From Paracholeplasma manati (GTDB lineage Bacteria > Bacillota_I > Bacilli_A > Acholeplasmatales > UBA5453), in assembly GCF_025742995.1 (NCBI RefSeq), contig NZ_JAOVQM010000003.1:124001-188000 (forward strand): a stretch of 64,000 bases of DNA, written 5' to 3'. This document shows positions 2,843 through 45,958 of the stretch, one piece after another. The position numbers were made by a program, and so were the translations under genes. A model generated the notes under the pieces. The model made no database searches. It saw nothing but the letters and a program-made list of their open reading frames with translations, and was not told the origin of the DNA. Position 1 is the stretch's first letter. Each line of letters starts with the position of its first letter.

Positions 2843-3382
2843 ATGAATAAAGATTTAAGTAAATTAACAGAATCAGCGGTTTTAGTGGCGTTAGCGGTAG
2901 TCCTCGAATTGATTTCGAAAATGATTCCAATTTTACAAATGCCTTATGGTGGATCGGCTTCTTTAGCCATGTTCCCCATCTTCATTTTAAGCTATCGACA
3001 TGGTTTGAAATGGGGTGTTCTATCCGGTTTCGTCTTCGGCATTATGAACTTTTTTATTGATGGTTATGCGTTTTTCTGGGGTTCATTCGTGTTTGACTAT
3101 ACGTTCGCCTTCGCAGCGATAGGTTTGGCTGGTTTATTCAGTAAAAAAGCACTGGATCAAAAGATCAGTGCCGTCTTGTTAGGGATTGTTTTGGGTTCAT
3201 TTGTTCGTTTCATCATTCACACGTTGTCTGGGATTTTATTCTTCGCAGAATATGCTGGTGATCAAAATGTAATCCTATACTCAGTCACTTACAATGGTGG
3301 TTACATGCTGGCTTCGATGGCGCTTTGCTTATTGGTAGCTATCCCAACGTATAAGCGCTTGCTTATGAAAGACTTGGTATAA
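2843..3382 (+). CDS. thiT: Energy-coupling-factor thiamine transporter S component ThiT
   Basis: Membrane S-component that captures thiamine and docks on a shared ECF module (EcfA/A'/T, not encoded here). The 179-residue protein is almost wholly hydrophobic with about six helices. It contains the family pattern PYGGSASLAMFPIFIL and RHGLKWGVLSG, which match the ThiT ligand-binding loop and helix 3. Two in-frame ATGs exist: 2837 lies only 2 nt from AAGGAG (2829-2834), while 2843 is 8 nt away, so 2843 is preferred. Regulation by the upstream TPP riboswitch independently supports the substrate. The 3' end overlaps the convergent recU gene by 20 nt. Confidence 0.93.
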   Translation: MNKDLSKLTESAVLVALAVVLELISKMIPILQMPYGGSASLAMFPIFILSYRHGLKWGVLSGFVFGIMNFFIDGYAFFWGSFVFDYTFAFAAIGLAGLFSKKALDQKISAVLLGIVLGSFVRFIIHTLSGILFFAEYAGDQNVILYSVTYNGGYMLASMALCLLVAIPTYKRLLMKDLV

Positions 3383-3947
3383 TGATGTCATCGATGATTT
3401 TTAAGTAGTCGATGCGTGGATTAAAGCCAAATTTGATGGGATAAGCTAATGTTTTAAACGTCTCATAAGTGATTGATTTTCTACCGCCATTAATAGACGA
3501 TAGATAATGTTCATAAAGCACATCAAATGGTAAATAATAGTATTCATTATACACAGAAAAATAGACAATCATGAAACCTATGCCACCAGCATCAACGATG
3601 CGTTTTAGGTGGATGATTTGATGTTCTGGGATGTTTTTTAAAGGAATCGACGTTTTTGAACTCGTTTCTTTCGCATCAAAGTCAATATAATAACCTTTAT
3701 ATACCCCATTGAAGTCTGTTGTCGATGGGGTTTTATAATACGCTTCCGTGATTTTGGCCTTATTGCGTGCAGGATAGCTGACCGTTACGACTTGTACAGG
3801 GGTAGGTTTTTTATAAATCACAGCCCGTTGTTTATCTAGATAAAACTGATTCGTCGCTTCGATATCGCCTTCTAAGGTCATCCCTAAGTTGGCGCGATTG
3901 ATGAGTTTGGTTGTGGTTTTTTTCGGATTTGGATAGTTAATAGCCAT
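3363..3947 (-). CDS. recU: Holliday junction resolvase RecU
   Basis: Endonuclease that resolves four-way DNA junctions in recombination and repair. The 194-residue sequence has the RecU start (AINYPNPKK), the TTDFNGVYKGYYIDFDAKET block that carries the Asp and the Glu-Lys metal/catalytic residues, the HQIIHLKR and GGIGFMIVYF segments, and a C-terminal FGFNPRIDYL. Length is normal. A GTG three codons upstream (3956) is open, but it overlaps the AGGTGATC ribosome site; ATG at 3947 has proper spacing and is used here. It is convergent with thiT. In many Bacillota recU neighbours a penicillin-binding protein gene; here it does not. Confidence 0.93.
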   Translation of the reverse strand: MAINYPNPKKTTTKLINRANLGMTLEGDIEATNQFYLDKQRAVIYKKPTPVQVVTVSYPARNKAKITEAYYKTPSTTDFNGVYKGYYIDFDAKETSSKTSIPLKNIPEHQIIHLKRIVDAGGIGFMIVYFSVYNEYYYLPFDVLYEHYLSSINGGRKSITYETFKTLAYPIKFGFNPRIDYLKIIDDIIIPSLS

Positions 3948-4036
3948 AAAGATCACCTATTTGTATATTACCATAAATGGGGATTTTTTACTTTAAAACC
4001 GCAATCAGTCATAAATTTGTAAATGGTGTAATAAAC

Positions 4037-4066
4037 TTGCTGAAATTTTGGTCTCCATGTTATAAT
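4037..4066 (+). promoter_or_regulatory. Promoter of the RNase J operon
   Basis: TTGCTG (4037-4042), an 18-bp spacer and an extended -10 TGTTATAAT (TATAAT at 4061-4066). The start codon at 4109 leaves a leader of about 35 nt. Confidence 0.65.
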
Positions 4067-4108
4067 TAATTAAACTTTAACGTTTCTAGTATCGAAAGGA
4101 AGTATTCT

Positions 4109-5782
4109 ATGAGCTTAATTAAAATTTTCGCCTTAGGCGGTCTCGGTGAAAACGGGAAAAATATGTATTGTGTTGATGTGGATAATCAATTATTCATTTT
4201 AGATGCCGGGATTAAATACCCAACTTCTGAATTGTTTGGGGTCGATGAAATTGTACCAGATTATAAGGTATTAATCGACTTTTTACCAAAAATCAAAGGT
4301 TTTTTCATGACGCATGCCCATGAAGACCACATCGGTGCCTTATCACACATCTTAAAAGATATTAACGTGCCTGTGTACGCGACTAACTTCACCATGGAAT
4401 TGATCAAAGACAACCTCAAAGAAGAGGGTTATGACTTAGAAAAGTTGAAACTCCATGTCATCAACCAAAATTCGATCATTAAATTTGATCATGTTAAAAT
4501 CACATTTTTCACAACCACACACTCCATTCCTGAAAGTGTTGGGGTTGCTATCAATACGATTGATGGGTCAATCATTTACACATCCGATTATACCTTTGAC
4601 CAAAGTGCTGACCCACGCTATCAAACCGATTTCAAGAAAATCAACGAATTGGCTGAAAAGAAAGTGCTCTGTTTACTGACGGAATCCCTTGGGTCAGGAT
4701 TGGTTCTCAATGGATCCATTACCAAAGAGCTCGACCACGCCATCAATCAAGCGATTTCAAATGCGCCTGGACGTGTCATTGCGTCGCTGTTCTCATCCGA
4801 CTTATTGAAAATTCAACGTGTTATTGACATCGCATTAAAACATAAAAAACGCATCGCCATCATCGGACGCCGTGCCCAACGCATCGTCGATATCGCGATT
4901 GAAATGAACTATTTAAATATTCCAAAAGAGTCTTTAATCGCACTACGATATATCGATGATAAAAACAAAAACGATGATAAAGACATTGTTGCGTTAGTCA
5001 CCGGAAATCGTCATGAACCCTTCTTCATGTTACAACGCATGTGCAAAAAGGCAGACCGTTTAATTTACATCGATGAGAACGATTCTGTTTTGGTGGTCGC
5101 TTCTCCAATCCCAGGGACTGAAAAGATGGCAGCTAAAACCTTAGATATCTTGTATCGTACAGATGCGAAAGTGACTGTGATTGATAAAAAGATTCTAACC
5201 ACATCACACGCCACAGCCGATGAAATCAAGATGATGATGAATATGCTTAAACCACGCTACATTTTACCGGTCATCGGTGAATACCGTATGCAATACGCTG
5301 TGCAAAAATTAGCGATGGAAATGGGTTATCAAAAAGACGATGTATTCTTAATGGATAATGGCGACGCACTGGTCTTTAAAGACGGTGAACCGGATGTCCA
5401 AAGAGCGCGTTTCCGCAGCGGCGACATCCTCATTGATGGGTCCGCGATTGGGGATGTCAATGACATTGTCATCCACGACCGTGAACTGTTATCCGAAGAT
5501 GGCGTATTGCTGATCGTTGCGAACATCAATCCACGTTCCAAACGCATTTTGGGTGAGATTGAAATCGTCACCAAAGGCTTTGTTTACGTCAAAGAATCCG
5601 AACAACTTTTAAAAGAAGTCAAAGATTTATTCATCAAAGCCTGCGACAAACACCTTAAAGGCAAATACATCAATTGGAATGAACTCAAAACCAATGTTAG
5701 GGAAGACATCAATAAGTTTTTATACAAAGAAACCAAACGCAGTCCAATCACCATCCCTGTGATTATTGCGACGGAAATATAA
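4109..5782 (+). CDS. rnj: Ribonuclease J
   Basis: Zinc-dependent RNase of the metallo-beta-lactamase/beta-CASP superfamily with endonuclease and 5'-3' exonuclease activity; central to mRNA decay and rRNA maturation in Bacillota. The HAHEDH metal motif spans residues 69-74 (His69, His71, Asp73, His74). Further signatures are SIPESVGVAI, the YTSDYTFD metal-ligand region, a beta-CASP insert with GRRAQRI, then HATADEIKMM and a C-terminal domain. The 557-residue length matches RNase J1/J2. The ribosome site AAAGGAAG precedes ATG. Only one copy is in this window, so J1 versus J2 is not assigned. A membrane-protein gene follows after 1 nt. Confidence 0.95.
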   Translation: MSLIKIFALGGLGENGKNMYCVDVDNQLFILDAGIKYPTSELFGVDEIVPDYKVLIDFLPKIKGFFMTHAHEDHIGALSHILKDINVPVYATNFTMELIKDNLKEEGYDLEKLKLHVINQNSIIKFDHVKITFFTTTHSIPESVGVAINTIDGSIIYTSDYTFDQSADPRYQTDFKKINELAEKKVLCLLTESLGSGLVLNGSITKELDHAINQAISNAPGRVIASLFSSDLLKIQRVIDIALKHKKRIAIIGRRAQRIVDIAIEMNYLNIPKESLIALRYIDDKNKNDDKDIVALVTGNRHEPFFMLQRMCKKADRLIYIDENDSVLVVASPIPGTEKMAAKTLDILYRTDAKVTVIDKKILTTSHATADEIKMMMNMLKPRYILPVIGEYRMQYAVQKLAMEMGYQKDDVFLMDNGDALVFKDGEPDVQRARFRSGDILIDGSAIGDVNDIVIHDRELLSEDGVLLIVANINPRSKRILGEIEIVTKGFVYVKESEQLLKEVKDLFIKACDKHLKGKYINWNELKTNVREDINKFLYKETKRSPITIPVIIATEI

Positions 5783-5783
5783 T

Positions 5784-6515
5784 ATGTTTAATAAAATACT
5801 CTATGGGGTTGTGACCCTAATCTTAGTGGTTGTGATTTATATTTCTTCACTGCTAGGCATCATTTATGAACGTCAAGCCATTTTATTAGAACAACTGATC
5901 GATGAATCAATAGAAGAACGTGATTTTACCAAATACATCAAGTATTCATCCTTGTATTATAATGAATTGACACCGACGACCATCAATGACCACGACGACT
6001 ATTTAGTTACCTATTTCCAAACGGTTGAAACCAATCGTGAAGGTAAAACCATCAGTCAATTGATTGTCTTTGTCATGGCAAATAATGAAGTCACGATGAG
6101 CGATACTGAAAAAAATGAAGCGGATCAAACCCGCATGGAAGTCTGGTCTGGTACGAATAAAGTATATTCTACCAAAGACGATGACATTTATAAAGATTTC
6201 GCCATCAGCTGGGGTTTGAAAGAACAATCATTTTATTACTATAACTTCTTAATTGAAGACAACCAATTTGATGTGAAACTATTTGATTATACAGGGTTTG
6301 TCATTGAAATTGCATCCATCGATACACCAGTAGTGGACTTGAGTGATGAAGATGCCATCCGCGATGCTGGGTTCTTAACCTCTTACACTGTGGATGAAAT
6401 TGAAGTGATGTTAAAGATTGAAGACCATGTATGGAAAATCTATTTGTACATTGGTATTTTTATGGTGATTGATATCGCTTTCGCCTTCTTTATTTTCAGA
6501 AAAAAATCAGCGTAA
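5784..6515 (+). CDS. Hypothetical bitopic membrane protein downstream of RNase J
   Basis: Unrecognised 243-residue protein. Its first 25 residues form a hydrophobic anchor (LYGVVTLILVVVIYISSLL). A central, acidic, Tyr-rich region of about 180 residues is predicted to be outside the cell. A second hydrophobic segment near residues 214-236 (IYLYIGIFMVIDIAFAFFIF) precedes a short Arg/Lys-rich tail, so both ends are probably cytosolic. The frame is open upstream into the RNase J gene (a TTG at 5766), but ATG at 5784, one base after the RNase J stop, is the sensible start. Translation is likely coupled to rnj. A strong terminator ends the operon. Confidence 0.72.
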   Translation: MFNKILYGVVTLILVVVIYISSLLGIIYERQAILLEQLIDESIEERDFTKYIKYSSLYYNELTPTTINDHDDYLVTYFQTVETNREGKTISQLIVFVMANNEVTMSDTEKNEADQTRMEVWSGTNKVYSTKDDDIYKDFAISWGLKEQSFYYYNFLIEDNQFDVKLFDYTGFVIEIASIDTPVVDLSDEDAIRDAGFLTSYTVDEIEVMLKIEDHVWKIYLYIGIFMVIDIAFAFFIFRKKSA

Positions 6516-40868: not shown

Positions 40869-42593
40869 ATGGCTTATACACATCATAACAATGAATTAAA
40901 TTTAGCCCACCTCGGACAAACCGTACGTCTTAAAGGTTGGGTCGCAAGAAAACGCAACTTAGGCGGTTTGATTTTTATTGACCTTCGTGACCGTTTCGGT
41001 ATCACACAGCTCTTGGTTCAACCAGGTCACCCATCGTATGAACTCGCAAGTACACTGAAGAGTGAATATGTGATCGCAATCACCGGTGTTGTCATTGAAC
41101 GTGAATCGAAAAACCCGAATATGGCAACAGGTGACATCGAAGTCAACATCGAAGAACTAGTGGTTTTAAACACCGCTGAAACACCACCTATTGGTATTTC
41201 AAATGAAGATACCGCTTTAGAAGATACCCGTCTAAAATACCGTTATTTGGACTTAAGACGTCCTGTCATGCAAAACTTCATGATTAAACGCGCTCAGATC
41301 ACCCAAGCGGTACGAGAAGCCCTTTTATTAGAAGGATTCAATGAGTTTGAAACCCCAATTTTAGGTAAATCAACCCCAGAAGGTGCGAGAGACTTCTTGG
41401 TGCCATCCCGTTTGTACGCAGGCGAATTTTACGCATTACCACAATCCCCACAAATCTATAAGCAATTATATATGGTCGCTGGATTCGAAAAATATTTCCA
41501 AATCGCTCGTTGTTTCAGGGATGAAGATTTACGTGCAGACCGTCAATTGGAATTCACCCAAGTGGACATTGAAACCTCATTCTTAACTGAATTAGAAATC
41601 CAATCGATGATTGAACGCGTATTGGCTCATACGTTTAAGAAAGTACTCAATGTAGAGATTAAACTACCGATTGAACGCATGCCTTTTGACCGCGCGATGT
41701 CTCTATATGGTTCAGATAAACCGGATTTACGCTTTGGGTTATTATTGAAAGACTTAAATCCACTATTCGATCATTATGCCATCCCATTTTTAGCAAACAA
41801 GTCCATTCGTGGCTTTGTGGTGCCAAATGGTGCGCATTTATCGCGTAAAGAACTCGATGCTTTTACAACAACCGTGAAGAAGAACCACGGGGATGCTTTA
41901 GCATTCTTAAAAGTATCAAACCATGAATTATCTGGTTCCCTGTTAAAAAATATTACGGACCCTAAGCAATTCATCGAATCGGCTGGTTTGGTTGAAAATG
42001 ACTTATTATTGGTCATTGCCGGTAAGGACTTCGAATCGGCATCCAAAGCCGCTGGTGCGCTTAGAAAAGAACTTGGTGACTACTTGAAGTTAGCGAGTGA
42101 TGATGATTATCGTTTCGTATGGATCGTTGATTGGCCTTTATTTGATGTCAATGAAGATGGTTCGCTCACTGCAGCCCATCACCCATTCACTTCCCCTAAA
42201 GAAGCCGATAAACCATTACTATTTTCCAACCCACAAGCTTGTCGTGCACAAGCCTATGACATTGTTTTAAACGGTTATGAATTGGGTGGTGGGTCGGTTC
42301 GTATCCATGAATCACATATCCAACAACAAATGTTTGAAGCCATCGGCCTATCTAAAGAAATCATTGAAGAACGTTTTGGATTCTTGGTCGGAGCCCTCAA
42401 GTATGGTACCCCACCTCATGGCGGACTCGCATTGGGTCTGGACCGTTTGGTAATGTTGATGACCAACACCAAAAACATCAAAGACGTCATCGCATTCCCT
42501 AAGACACAAAGTGCGAGAGACTTGATGATGCAAGCCCCATCGAGTGTCGCAGATGCACAACTAGAAGAACTCAATTTAATCATCAAAAAATAA
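40869..42593 (+). CDS. aspS: Aspartyl-tRNA synthetase
   Basis: Class II synthetase of 574 residues, bacterial type. An N-terminal OB-fold anticodon domain (GWVARKRNLGGLIFIDLRDR) is followed by the catalytic core with PQSPQIYKQLYMVAG, RCFRDEDLRADRQLEFTQVD (motif 2), an inserted GAD domain (about 290-410) and GLALGLDRLVMLM (motif 3). Length agrees with bacterial AspRS. Co-transcribed with hisS under the T-box and followed by a terminator. Confidence 0.97.
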   Translation: MAYTHHNNELNLAHLGQTVRLKGWVARKRNLGGLIFIDLRDRFGITQLLVQPGHPSYELASTLKSEYVIAITGVVIERESKNPNMATGDIEVNIEELVVLNTAETPPIGISNEDTALEDTRLKYRYLDLRRPVMQNFMIKRAQITQAVREALLLEGFNEFETPILGKSTPEGARDFLVPSRLYAGEFYALPQSPQIYKQLYMVAGFEKYFQIARCFRDEDLRADRQLEFTQVDIETSFLTELEIQSMIERVLAHTFKKVLNVEIKLPIERMPFDRAMSLYGSDKPDLRFGLLLKDLNPLFDHYAIPFLANKSIRGFVVPNGAHLSRKELDAFTTTVKKNHGDALAFLKVSNHELSGSLLKNITDPKQFIESAGLVENDLLLVIAGKDFESASKAAGALRKELGDYLKLASDDDYRFVWIVDWPLFDVNEDGSLTAAHHPFTSPKEADKPLLFSNPQACRAQAYDIVLNGYELGGGSVRIHESHIQQQMFEAIGLSKEIIEERFGFLVGALKYGTPPHGGLALGLDRLVMLMTNTKNIKDVIAFPKTQSARDLMMQAPSSVADAQLEELNLIIKK

Positions 42594-42620
42594 AGACGAG
42601 CAATCGTCTTTATCTTTTTC
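42590..42620 (+). terminator. Terminator after aspS
   Basis: ATAAAGACGA (42590-42599) pairs with TCGTCTTTAT (42604-42613) across a GCAA loop, followed by CTTTTTC. Confidence 0.8.
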
Positions 42621-42633
42621 AAAATGGCTTCAT

Positions 42634-44004
42634 TTAGCCGTTATTTTGTTGTGTTTGTTGTCTTACCATATGTTCATAGCGGAATTCAAGTCTGGCTTGA
42701 ACATTGATTTGTGCCATTTGAAGTCTGAATTGGTTGAGGACTTGATTGTATTGTAAAAGGGTTGCTTGAAGTTGGAGATTCAATTCACCTAAGAATAAAT
42801 CTTCAAACGCTGCTAAATCGACTTGATGTTCTAAGAATAATTGGCGATAGGTTTCGCGAATGGCTCGATAATCATCCATGAAGTTTTCTAAAAGCAGGAT
42901 TTCAAGTTCACCATTTTGATAGAAGAACAAGTACTCGTGTGGTATATTTTCTGCATCCACATACGCTTTAACCATTTGATCTAGTTCAGCTTTGGTAGAC
43001 ATGAAGTTCATGAAGATGGTTTGAGCTTGGGTTCTAAGGTTCGCGCGTTCTTGGCGATTACCATTGAATTCTTCGTACAATGCTTTTAGTTCTACTTTAT
43101 AACCAATCAATAATTCATTTTTGGCTTGGATAGCTGCATCCGCATCAATTTTCGCTTGAATAGAAGTTTCATAGGCGTCAGCACTAGGAATTTCAATCGC
43201 TTCGATGGCATCGACATATGCTCCATATAGCGCGACTAAAGCTTGAGCATCCAAATCTGAATCCACCAATAATGCATCAAATCCAGATGGGTTTGTGATC
43301 AACATTAGATTGGCTTGGGTTTCAATATAGGATACACGTAAGAAGTGGAAAGCGGCTTTCGCATTCGCTCTAAGTTGTAGATATGCAAGTCTAACGTGGT
43401 CGGTTGCGAAATCGTTCAATGCTTCACGATTTTCATTGATGATGTTTAATAATTCACGAACACTCATATTGACAGCTACTTCATAAGTTAAATCGACATC
43501 TAAAGCCATCGCCGCTTTGATGATGCGATATTTACCGACTGAGATACCAAGTGCTTCCGCTTGATCGATGTCTTCTTGGGTGATGCCTGCATTACCATCC
43601 ACCACATTGACAGTCATATTTTTGGACTCCAAGTGGGCTTGAATGCGGCTACGAATATTGGCTTGGATGCGGCTCATACGATTAGCATTATCGGTTTCAG
43701 TCGTGACGACAACCGCGTTTTCCATACCCGCTTTTAAATAGCCATATTGTCTGGCCAATTCCGTGATATCGACGACGACATCAGCCGCCACTTTACCTGT
43801 AAAATCGGTATCTAATAATAACGTTTGTGCATCGTCATTGAGCGGTGTTACGCGTTCAACACGACCTCTGGCATTGGTTGTGATTTCAACGCTTGGGTTG
43901 ATATCGACCGTAATTCTCGCATTCGCTGCGTTCACCGATTCGGTGCAGGCAGCGAGGATCGTAATCATTAATAAGGCTACAGTAATGACAAATAGTTTTC
44001 TCAT
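42634..44004 (-). CDS. Lipoprotein with an RsgI-type extracytoplasmic domain
   Basis: A 456-residue lipoprotein: lipobox LAAC (Cys20) then directly ARITVDINPSVEITTNARGRV, the hallmark of the outer domain of RsgI-like anti-sigma factors. The Asn36-Pro37 bond corresponds to the site where RsgI proteins are known to self-cleave. A DITELARQYGYL helix and a stretch like RSRIQAHLESKNMTV follow. The C-terminal 250 residues are helical and Gln/Glu/Ala-rich, probably coiled coil. It has no membrane helix or cytosolic domain, so it cannot bind a sigma factor; it may compete with or modulate the adjacent RsgI-like protein. It starts 4 nt after that gene and is its partial paralog. Confidence 0.7.
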   Translation of the reverse strand: MRKLFVITVALLMITILAACTESVNAANARITVDINPSVEITTNARGRVERVTPLNDDAQTLLLDTDFTGKVAADVVVDITELARQYGYLKAGMENAVVVTTETDNANRMSRIQANIRSRIQAHLESKNMTVNVVDGNAGITQEDIDQAEALGISVGKYRIIKAAMALDVDLTYEVAVNMSVRELLNIINENREALNDFATDHVRLAYLQLRANAKAAFHFLRVSYIETQANLMLITNPSGFDALLVDSDLDAQALVALYGAYVDAIEAIEIPSADAYETSIQAKIDADAAIQAKNELLIGYKVELKALYEEFNGNRQERANLRTQAQTIFMNFMSTKAELDQMVKAYVDAENIPHEYLFFYQNGELEILLLENFMDDYRAIRETYRQLFLEHQVDLAAFEDLFLGELNLQLQATLLQYNQVLNQFRLQMAQINVQARLEFRYEHMVRQQTQQNNG

Positions 44005-44008
44005 GATG

Positions 44009-45328
44009 TTATTGCTCCTTTTGTTGGTAATTTTGTAAAATTGTTTGAATATATGGGGATGATTTTAGGGATTCAGTGACTTGATTCGAATTGTAATAAA
44101 CCATGAATTCTTGGTAAGCTTCATCCAAAATACGACGATAAGCATTCCCTGATCCAGCAGAAGGCTGGTTAAGTATGGTGTCTAATCGTTTCGCACTAGC
44201 CAAGAACAATTGATCATACAATGAAGCATCTAAGTACAATTCAACTGAAGTTAGGACTTGCATGGCATGGGCTGGCGCTTGCCATTCACTCAATTGATTT
44301 AAATTGGCATGTGTATCGACCAAATGGGTATATAATCCACGAACACTTAGCTCGAATAACGTGTCTACTTGTTGTTTTAAATAGGCTTCATAAGCATCTA
44401 TTTTGGATTCAAGCACCAATAATTTTTGATATTTCACGCTTGGCAACAATGGAATGGTCGCGTTTGGAAAGTATTCTGTTGAGAATGTTGCATAGGCTTG
44501 ATTGAACTGTACAAGGTTTGAATCATACAATTCTTTTAAGTTATCAATGGCTGCTCTTAGGTTCTCTATATACGTATCCACTTCGAGTAACAAAGATGCT
44601 TTTTGATCATCGAGATTTCGTTTTAATGCTTCGAGTTGCGTTTTAAGTGCATCGATTTCTGTTGCCACAAAGCCGCGTCTGATTTCATTCAATCTTGGAA
44701 TATCATAGGATAGAAGTGTATCTAAGCTATAGGATGGATCGATGGCGATGATGGCTTTAATCAAAGCGAGTTTTCGAGGTGTGATATTGAGCGATTTGGC
44801 TTCTGAAATCAAGGCTTCAGTCACTTGGATCATTTGAATTCTGGATTGAAAACGCGCTTGAATACGCTCATTTAATTTGTTTTCAATCGTTGATTTTTCA
44901 TTATATGCGTTGACATTTACCACAGAAGCATCTGTGACATAACCCAACACAGTGGCTTGTGTAATGACTGCTTCAATGGCGTCATTCACGGATAAGCTGG
45001 TCAAAACCATGTTTTCAATGACCACTTCACCATCCAAATTGAGGGCACGATAGGACGTGACTTCATCTTTCTCATCCACGGTAAACTCGATAGATGGGTT
45101 GATGTCAACCGTCACAATCGATGGGGTCGTAGGGTTTTGTCTAAATAAGGTGATACCAACCAAAACCAATAATAGAAGTCCAACTGTCATGGCAAGTTTT
45201 GGATGCCAGTGGATAACGCTCGATTTATGCTTTTCTTGTCTAGGGATTTGGGATAAAATACGTGCTTTATCCAGTTCAATGGTCTTTCCTTCGGCTTTTA
45301 ATTGTTCAATTAAAGATTTATTTGTCAT
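44009..45328 (-). CDS. RsgI-like membrane anti-sigma factor candidate
   Basis: A 439-residue bitopic protein. About 45 cytosolic residues (with ELDKARILSQIP) precede one membrane helix (about 47-63), then the outer domain starts TVDINPSIEFTVDEKDEV, with the cleavable-type Asn77-Pro78 bond, an AVITQATVLGYVTD helix and a long coiled-coil-rich C-terminal region. By analogy with RsgI, the cytosolic part would hold the sigma factor encoded just upstream until cleavage and intramembrane proteolysis. I cannot match the short cytosolic region to the RsgI N-terminal domain with certainty. It overlaps the sigma gene by 11 nt, with GGAGGTACC before the ATG. No carbohydrate-binding domain is evident at its C-terminus, unlike cellulosome RsgI proteins. 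Confidence 0.7.
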   Translation of the reverse strand: MTNKSLIEQLKAEGKTIELDKARILSQIPRQEKHKSSVIHWHPKLAMTVGLLLLVLVGITLFRQNPTTPSIVTVDINPSIEFTVDEKDEVTSYRALNLDGEVVIENMVLTSLSVNDAIEAVITQATVLGYVTDASVVNVNAYNEKSTIENKLNERIQARFQSRIQMIQVTEALISEAKSLNITPRKLALIKAIIAIDPSYSLDTLLSYDIPRLNEIRRGFVATEIDALKTQLEALKRNLDDQKASLLLEVDTYIENLRAAIDNLKELYDSNLVQFNQAYATFSTEYFPNATIPLLPSVKYQKLLVLESKIDAYEAYLKQQVDTLFELSVRGLYTHLVDTHANLNQLSEWQAPAHAMQVLTSVELYLDASLYDQLFLASAKRLDTILNQPSAGSGNAYRRILDEAYQEFMVYYNSNQVTESLKSSPYIQTILQNYQQKEQ

Positions 45329-45845
45329 GATTGGTACCTCCTTCCAGCTGGTGTTTCAATTTTTCAAGTGCCACATTGAGTTTAAATGTCACACCTGAGG
45401 TGGATAAATTCAGTGTTTTCGCAACTGTTTGTCTCGTTTTTCCTTCAACAACACAATGCATCACAATATAGAATTCATCTTCATCCAATACTTGGGCCGC
45501 TAAATCCATGAGCGGCGTTTCTGTGTCTTCTTGGGTGGGTTGATTGAGTGTTTCCACATCCACGAGTGTTTCTCTCGATTGTTTGTGGTAATGATTGATG
45601 GCTTCATTTTTAGCAATGCGCATGATCCATGATTTGGGTTGGTCATCCTGATAAGATGCACGGTTTTGATAGATTTTCATGTAGACGTCTTGCATGATTT
45701 CTTCAGCAACCGCTGTCCGTTTCACGATTTGGTAGATTTGATAGAACACCATACGGTTGGTTATATCATAAATCACATCCATCGCGTTACTCTGACCATT
45801 TTTTAACTGTTTCATGGCTTGTTTCAATTTAATTTGATCAAACAT
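45318..45845 (-). CDS. ECF-type RNA polymerase sigma factor
   Basis: A 175-residue sigma-70-family protein with region 2 (about 10-85: EEIMQDVYMKIYQNR and SWIMRIAKNEAINHYHK, the -10 recognition helix) and region 4 (about 115-165: EDEFYIVMHCVVEGKTRQTVAKTLNLSTSGVTFKLN, a helix-turn-helix for -35 recognition). Regions 1 and 3 are missing, which defines the ECF group. An open frame reaches 45941, but ATG at 45845 with GGAGTGG 5-7 nt upstream is the start. Pairing with an RsgI-like protein is unusual since RsgI normally partners SigI. Confidence 0.88.
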   Translation of the reverse strand: MFDQIKLKQAMKQLKNGQSNAMDVIYDITNRMVFYQIYQIVKRTAVAEEIMQDVYMKIYQNRASYQDDQPKSWIMRIAKNEAINHYHKQSRETLVDVETLNQPTQEDTETPLMDLAAQVLDEDEFYIVMHCVVEGKTRQTVAKTLNLSTSGVTFKLNVALEKLKHQLEGGTNHDK

Positions 45846-45929
45846 ATGACCACTCCCAACATCCCTGACACCTATATAACAAATAACTTGTATGGTTTCG
45901 CCAGTAAAAAGTAAAAAATCTTTAATTCC

Positions 45930-45958
45930 ATTATACGCCAACTGATGATAAGACTAAA
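45930..45958 (-). promoter_or_regulatory. Possible promoter of the sigma/anti-sigma operon
   Basis: Read on the minus strand: TTTAGT (45953-45958), 17-bp spacer, TATAAT (45930-45935). This is a housekeeping-type promoter; an additional ECF-type autoregulatory promoter could not be recognised. Confidence 0.4.

Follow-up and report, generated by a model that had tools for sequence, protein, structure and literature searches.

The window, by which we mean the whole stretch of 64,000 nucleotides analysed here, comes from an Acholeplasmataceae-like genome, whose host we take to be a wall-less bacterium. Three genes on its minus strand form a unit in the order sigma factor, anti-sigma factor and, last, lipoprotein (Table 1). 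The anti-sigma gene lies directly downstream of the sigma gene, its start overlapping the latter by 11 nt, and its orthologues are likewise found in tandem behind a sigma gene.

Table 1. Genes, protein parts and DNA features of the three-gene unit (window coordinates)
Feature	Position	Strand	Evidence
ECF sigma factor, 175 aa, regions 2 and 4	45318..45845	-	Pfam Sigma70_r2, TIGR02937
Anti-sigma factor, 439 aa, one transmembrane helix, RsgI_M ectodomain	44009..45328	-	PF23750 E=7e-23
Cytoplasmic N-terminus, residues 1-42, presumed sigma-binding part, not RsgI_N	45203..45328	-	Alignment of N-termini across the class; no PF12791 match
Transmembrane helix, residues 44-62	45143..45199	-	Hydropathy; model helix 43-61
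RsgI_M/SEAL domain of anti-sigma factor, residues 71-191	44756..45118	-	Pfam; model vs B. subtilis RsgI 8t9n_B TMt 0.76
Asn77-Pro78 codons, predicted self-cleavage site	45095..45100	-	PDB chains 8u9o_B, 8her_B, 8hep_B begin at the aligned Pro
Helical C-terminal extension, residues 214-439	44012..44689	-	AlphaFold2 model, only helices; no Pfam family
Lipoprotein, 456 aa, RsgI_M/SEAL domain and helical C-terminus	42634..44004	-	Signal peptide, lipobox LAAC20; PF23750 E=5e-28
RsgI_M/SEAL domain of lipoprotein, residues 29-163	43516..43920	-	Pfam; model vs 8t9n_A E=1e-7, C. thermocellum RsgI1, 2, 6, 9
Asn36-Pro37 codons, predicted self-cleavage site	43894..43899	-	PDB chains 8her_B, 8hep_B, 8hdj_B, 8heq_B, 8u9o_B begin at the aligned Pro
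Conserved bipartite promoter motif ACTGGCGAAAC-N12-TTGTTATATAGG upstream of sigma gene	45871..45905	-	Fixed spacing in five of five family genomes examined
Hairpin, possible terminator, between convergent lipoprotein and aspS genes	42590..42613	.	Consensus scan, hit number not above chance

The sigma factor matches Sigma70_r2 of Pfam (E=6e-12) and, over its whole length, the sigma70-ECF model of NCBIfam (TIGR02937, 53 bits, above the cut-off). Its region 4 is weak (E=0.01), and that of its paralogue in another unit of this genome, described below, scores above the cut-off. The relatives of the protein in the PDB are the ECF factors SigW, SigH and SigK, which together with the TIGR02937 score sets it outside the SigI group. 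A longer reading frame opening with a TTG at 45941 is an artefact of the listing; relatives begin at an ATG that corresponds to 45845.

The RsgI_M family (PF23750, cut-off 25.3 bits) has only two members in the whole genome, the anti-sigma factor at 82 bits and the lipoprotein at 99 bits. The two domains also align with each other (BLASTP E=4e-12), and neither this alignment nor the family matches are the product of chance. Beyond the shared domain, no homology could be detected between the outer helical parts of the two proteins (hhalign probability 5.7%). RsgI_N (PF12791) has no match anywhere in the genome; the same search does match Bacillus subtilis. A second positive control is L055, from another genome of the class, where a SigI-linked protein carries both RsgI_N and RsgI_M. 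It is residues 1-42 of the anti-sigma factor that presumably bind the sigma factor.

Models of both proteins put the Asn-Pro motif between two strands, which in the anti-sigma factor are residues 70-75 and 79-84. The PDB chains given in Table 1 for the two Asn-Pro sites are cleaved RsgI chains, so that their first residue marks the cut. The best ten Foldseek matches of each model are RsgI structures, the only convincing ones being RsgI of B. subtilis and Clostridium thermocellum, for models of medium to low confidence (mean pLDDT 60 for the anti-sigma factor and 52 for the lipoprotein) whose alignments held only three close homologues per protein (the window and loci L013 and L014), a number that lowers their quality. 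Asn-Pro is kept in 135 of 135 related domains that cover the motif, lipoproteins included, and these two residues are the sole fully invariant columns of the domain in this set from related genomes. Both proteins are therefore candidates for self-cleavage at this bond, and such cleavage is probable.

Much of this agrees with a sequence-only reading of the window. It had placed the three genes on the minus strand at these positions and had recognised an ECF sigma factor with an RsgI-like partner, as the Sigma70_r2, TIGR02937 and PF23750 matches bear out. The DINPS motif that it saw in both downstream proteins indeed places the bonds at Asn77-Pro78 and Asn36-Pro37, and its description of the lipoprotein as the cleavable domain lacking any anti-sigma part holds, since that protein has no cytoplasmic part.

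The two proteins also agree in where the domain sits. In the lipoproteins of such units, the median separation of the scissile Asn from the lipidated Cys is 17 residues (quartiles 16-18); in the anti-sigma factors, its separation from the end of the predicted transmembrane helix has the same median, 17 residues (quartiles 15-19). The lipid apparently stands in for the transmembrane helix, and the cleavable fold is predicted to be kept at equal height over the membrane. Cleavage of the lipoprotein cannot itself release a sigma factor, because there is no membrane helix for a site-2 protease to cut; its target would therefore be the anti-sigma factor or a ligand, or else it would act outside. 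The first of these, which is also where RseB and MucB act by different means, is favoured because of the recurrence of the pairing, described next.

The search for RsgI_M covered three sets of genomes (order, 160; class, 296; phylum, 295), and 100 loci were read. Among these 100 loci, which were partly picked for tandem copies and whose proportions are thus no estimates for the class, RsgI_M occurs with an ECF sigma factor in 64 and with SigI in four. By all appearances, the RsgI-type cleavable domain works with ECF sigma factors across this large class. At 25 loci in seven families, sigma factor and RsgI_M anti-sigma factor are accompanied by an adjoining RsgI_M partner, mostly with a recognisable lipobox. 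Another 12, all in the sister family f2, combine a sigma factor, an anti-sigma factor with a different ectodomain and an RsgI_M lipoprotein. The adjoining lipoprotein is missing beside the ECF sigma factor and RsgI_M anti-sigma factor at 27 loci, so either it is not always needed or it is located elsewhere. The remaining 32 hold orphan RsgI_M proteins away from sigma genes. In all members of the window's family that bear the unit, and in six further families, the lipoprotein stays with it.

This survey of similar three-gene units, which the sequence-only reading had proposed, puts its idea of a new variant of SigI/RsgI signalling in perspective. The system can be called a variant of RsgI signalling, with an RsgI-like partner and an ECF factor in the place of SigI; it is no isolated oddity, the ECF pairing being common in the sampled loci, and SigI is no part of it.

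A tree of 128 domains places the window's two copies in separate groups, one of anti-sigma factors and one of lipoproteins (support 92 and 94, not starred). Since each of these groups also holds proteins from units of families f9, f12 and f19, the three-gene unit must be old. Units in which the lipoprotein comes first (f16/f12) make up a separate group with full support; the lipoproteins of f2 cluster with orphan RsgI_M proteins. The label ‘lipoprotein of a unit’ changes 11 times on the tree, at least five of the changes being forced by well-supported (starred) branches, and the pairing has therefore arisen, or been rebuilt, several times.

Some loci show further arrangements of the domain. 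Proteins of 782 and 890 aa carry three RsgI_M domains in a row with no sigma gene nearby (L032, 3516-5864; L051, 3086-5758). A second RsgI_M protein next to the anti-sigma factor is present even at SigI-type loci in family f22 (L172, L186, L189). In one genome (G100; L028, 2770-3760) the gene for an RsgI_M lipoprotein is spread over two reading frames, possibly a pseudogene or a sequencing error.

The f2 units lead to a second form of the design. Their anti-sigma factors keep the N-terminus and the membrane helix, and have an ectodomain of about 270 residues that is other than RsgI_M and belongs to no Pfam family, so that within the unit RsgI_M occurs on the lipoprotein alone. With a profile of this ectodomain (A3), a second three-gene unit comes to light in the genome of the window; it lies beside dnaK and dnaJ, some 52 kb before the window (L145, C3:66500-75500, 3158-5997). 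It consists of a lipoprotein, an ECF sigma factor and an anti-sigma factor, with the non-Pfam ectodomain on both the lipoprotein and the anti-sigma factor, and its gene content recurs in genomes of f1, f2 and f3. The matching ectodomain on anti-sigma factor and lipoprotein is thus a design repeated with a domain of another family. Elsewhere in the same genome (L201, 1453-3056), an ECF sigma gene is followed by a gene for a membrane protein and one for a 160-aa lipoprotein, neither in a Pfam family; this is possibly a third unit of the kind.

A predicted promoter of bipartite form precedes the sigma gene. The consensus ACTGNNNAAAY-N12-TTGTTATATAGG is found before it in each unit examined of the window's family, and with a spacer tolerance of +/-1 the motif occurs in 12 of 63 sigma upstream regions, all from f1, f12 and f19, against 0.0 expected from shuffles. 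The search turned up no strict motif ahead of the sister-family units or the lipoprotein-first ones. The window's sigma factor may regulate its own operon through this strongly conserved motif.

The reading that we prefer, with a probability of roughly 0.7, is of an autoregulated ECF sigma/anti-sigma system working by RsgI-type autocleavage and intramembrane proteolysis, in which the lipoprotein is an integral homotypic partner. We infer sigma binding, proteolysis and the role of the lipoprotein to be as follows. The short N-terminus of the anti-sigma factor would keep the ECF sigma factor at the membrane. The ectodomain would cut itself at Asn77-Pro78 and remain assembled, strand 1 being left on the membrane stub, until a signal at the outer helical part detaches it. 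An RseP-type protease could then cut the membrane helix, and the freed sigma factor would transcribe its own operon. The lipoprotein would present the same cleavable domain at equal height, probably pairing with the anti-sigma ectodomain, and may in this way set or reset the threshold as a co-sensor.

These steps follow a known route. In C. thermocellum, autocleavage of RsgI leads to separation of strand 1, cleavage by RseP and degradation by ClpXP (PMC12203970). The genome encodes a site-2 protease (the RseP equivalog TIGR00054, which scores 251 bits; cut-off 148), and components predicted to serve the first two proteolytic steps of the C. thermocellum pathway are thus present. The membrane helix of the window's anti-sigma factor lacks the XAA motif that ClpXP uses in that species, and the final step may thus be different. 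Closing of the self-cleavage site in B. subtilis RsgI reportedly does not block signalling fully (PMC12203970).

The sequence-only reading had offered the lipoprotein as a decoy or a co-sensor. The self-cutting of RsgI domains makes a decoy for a site-1 protease unlikely, since none would be needed. The co-sensor fits better, given that in f2 the lipoprotein is the sole RsgI_M protein and that the second unit repeats the design. A competitive decoy could still take the ligand or the force meant for the anti-sigma factor and so damp the signal, with negative feedback resulting from the shared operon. Domain, operon, promoter and anchor distance are all common to both proteins, which speaks for it; however, a shared ligand is not obvious for outer helical parts lacking detectable homology, and the sister-family anti-sigma factor, having no RsgI_M domain, leaves the lipoprotein nothing alike to compete with. 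We consider such a decoy unlikely.

Alternatively, the lipoprotein could be an output of the system, a surface protein that sheds its autocleaved outer part and has no signalling role. Its gene is the last of the operon, its product has no membrane helix and so is no substrate for a site-2 protease, orphan RsgI_M proteins exist at the 32 loci away from sigma genes, and a further predicted target in a relative (G003, see below) is also a lipoprotein. Yet the repeated, independent pairing of matching ectodomains is hard to square with mere output, and this explanation too seems rather improbable.

A more specific role, which we regard as distinctly doubtful, is that of a resetting cap. Once the ectodomain of the anti-sigma factor is gone, a nearby lipoprotein could supply a substitute in its self-cleaved outer half, which nothing but strand 1 of that lipoprotein retains, at equal height above the membrane. 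By strand exchange this half might move onto the bare strand-1 stub of the anti-sigma factor and block the site-2 protease. Were this true, two copies of one cleavable fold would constitute a force sensor with a built-in reset.

It is unlikely that the Asn-Pro motif is simply structural, with both proteins left uncleaved and an ordinary site-1 protease doing the signalling. RsgI8 of C. thermocellum does lack self-cleavage, and ClpXP nevertheless takes its N-terminal fragment as a substrate, as it does those of the other RsgI proteins (PMC12203970). The motif, however, is absent from RsgI8 and present in the proteins discussed here, where its conservation is stricter than that of every other column. 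That the lipoprotein is a chance neighbour, as the existence of orphan copies elsewhere might suggest, is refuted by the survey, given its retention in all unit-bearing family members and six further families and its separate form in the sister family.

The preferred reading, of autocleavage and a homotypic lipoprotein partner, can be set against known systems. RsgI self-cleavage is a leading candidate for a force-driven bacterial sigma switch and has, to our knowledge, been studied only with SigI. The window's unit resembles SigI/RsgI of B. subtilis and C. thermocellum in its one-pass anti-sigma factor with an RsgI_M (SEAL) ectodomain, in an Asn-Pro where the solved RsgI chains are cut and in the presence of RseP. 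It differs in having an ECF factor rather than SigI, in lacking RsgI_N and in adding a lipoprotein with the same domain. The C. thermocellum proteins bear carbohydrate-binding modules, whereas the outer part here is helical and of no known family. The host family also differs in its lack of penicillin-binding transpeptidases, none being found in any of its 13 genomes searched, and this excludes peptidoglycan as the general signal.

RpoE-RseA-RseB and AlgU-MucA-MucB likewise join an ECF sigma factor to a membrane anti-sigma factor and to an accessory protein that is extracytoplasmic and encoded in the operon. As far as we know, RseB and MucB share no domain with their anti-sigma factors, and they guard a site for a separate protease, whereas the window's partner and anti-sigma factor share a self-cleaving domain. 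Both accessory proteins bind the anti-sigma ectodomain (PMC7400510). The sigE-cseA-cseB-cseC cluster of Streptomyces coelicolor also has a lipoprotein gene beside an ECF sigma gene; we know of no RsgI_M domain in CseA, and sigE differs in that a two-component system controls it and no anti-sigma factor takes part. The lipoprotein, encoded beside the ECF sigma gene, dampens the response (PMC6767563).

SEAL-domain proteins, which have the same cleavable domain as the window's two proteins, were reportedly treated as a class by Brogan et al. in 2023. In the literature searched, the SEAL-domain and ECF-reclassification papers excepted, we found no description of an ECF sigma factor paired with an RsgI-type domain, nor of a lipoprotein copy of such a domain. 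The recurrent pairing in related bacteria points to a possibly undescribed way of sensing extracellular conditions. A lipoprotein with a matching ectodomain, recurrent and repeated in the second unit, suggests a design rule for sigma switches, one that a set of three genes in a laboratory strain could put to the test.

What the sigma factor may control besides its own operon can be approached through the promoter motif. The site upstream of the sigma gene is the only strong one in the window's genome, and we claim no further targets there because a looser search gave matches at chance level (28, against 41 in the reversed control). The complete relative G003 has two more copies of the motif, with one and two mismatches, and none in the reversed control. 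One precedes the gene for a lipoprotein related to the f2 anti-sigma ectodomain (46 bits; hhalign 92.7%, with the protein's own locus, L084, left out of the f2 family alignment), scores that call for caution given the acidic repeats of this protein. The other precedes genes for a PucR-type regulator, YcxB and a MalK/UgpC-type sugar ABC ATPase (L152, 2314-4593). In another genome (G027; L158, 1180-4722), homologues of this regulator (37%) and of the ATPase (72% identical) are encoded directly behind an ECF unit of the second type. A link between the ECF system and sugar uptake may be taken as a lead.
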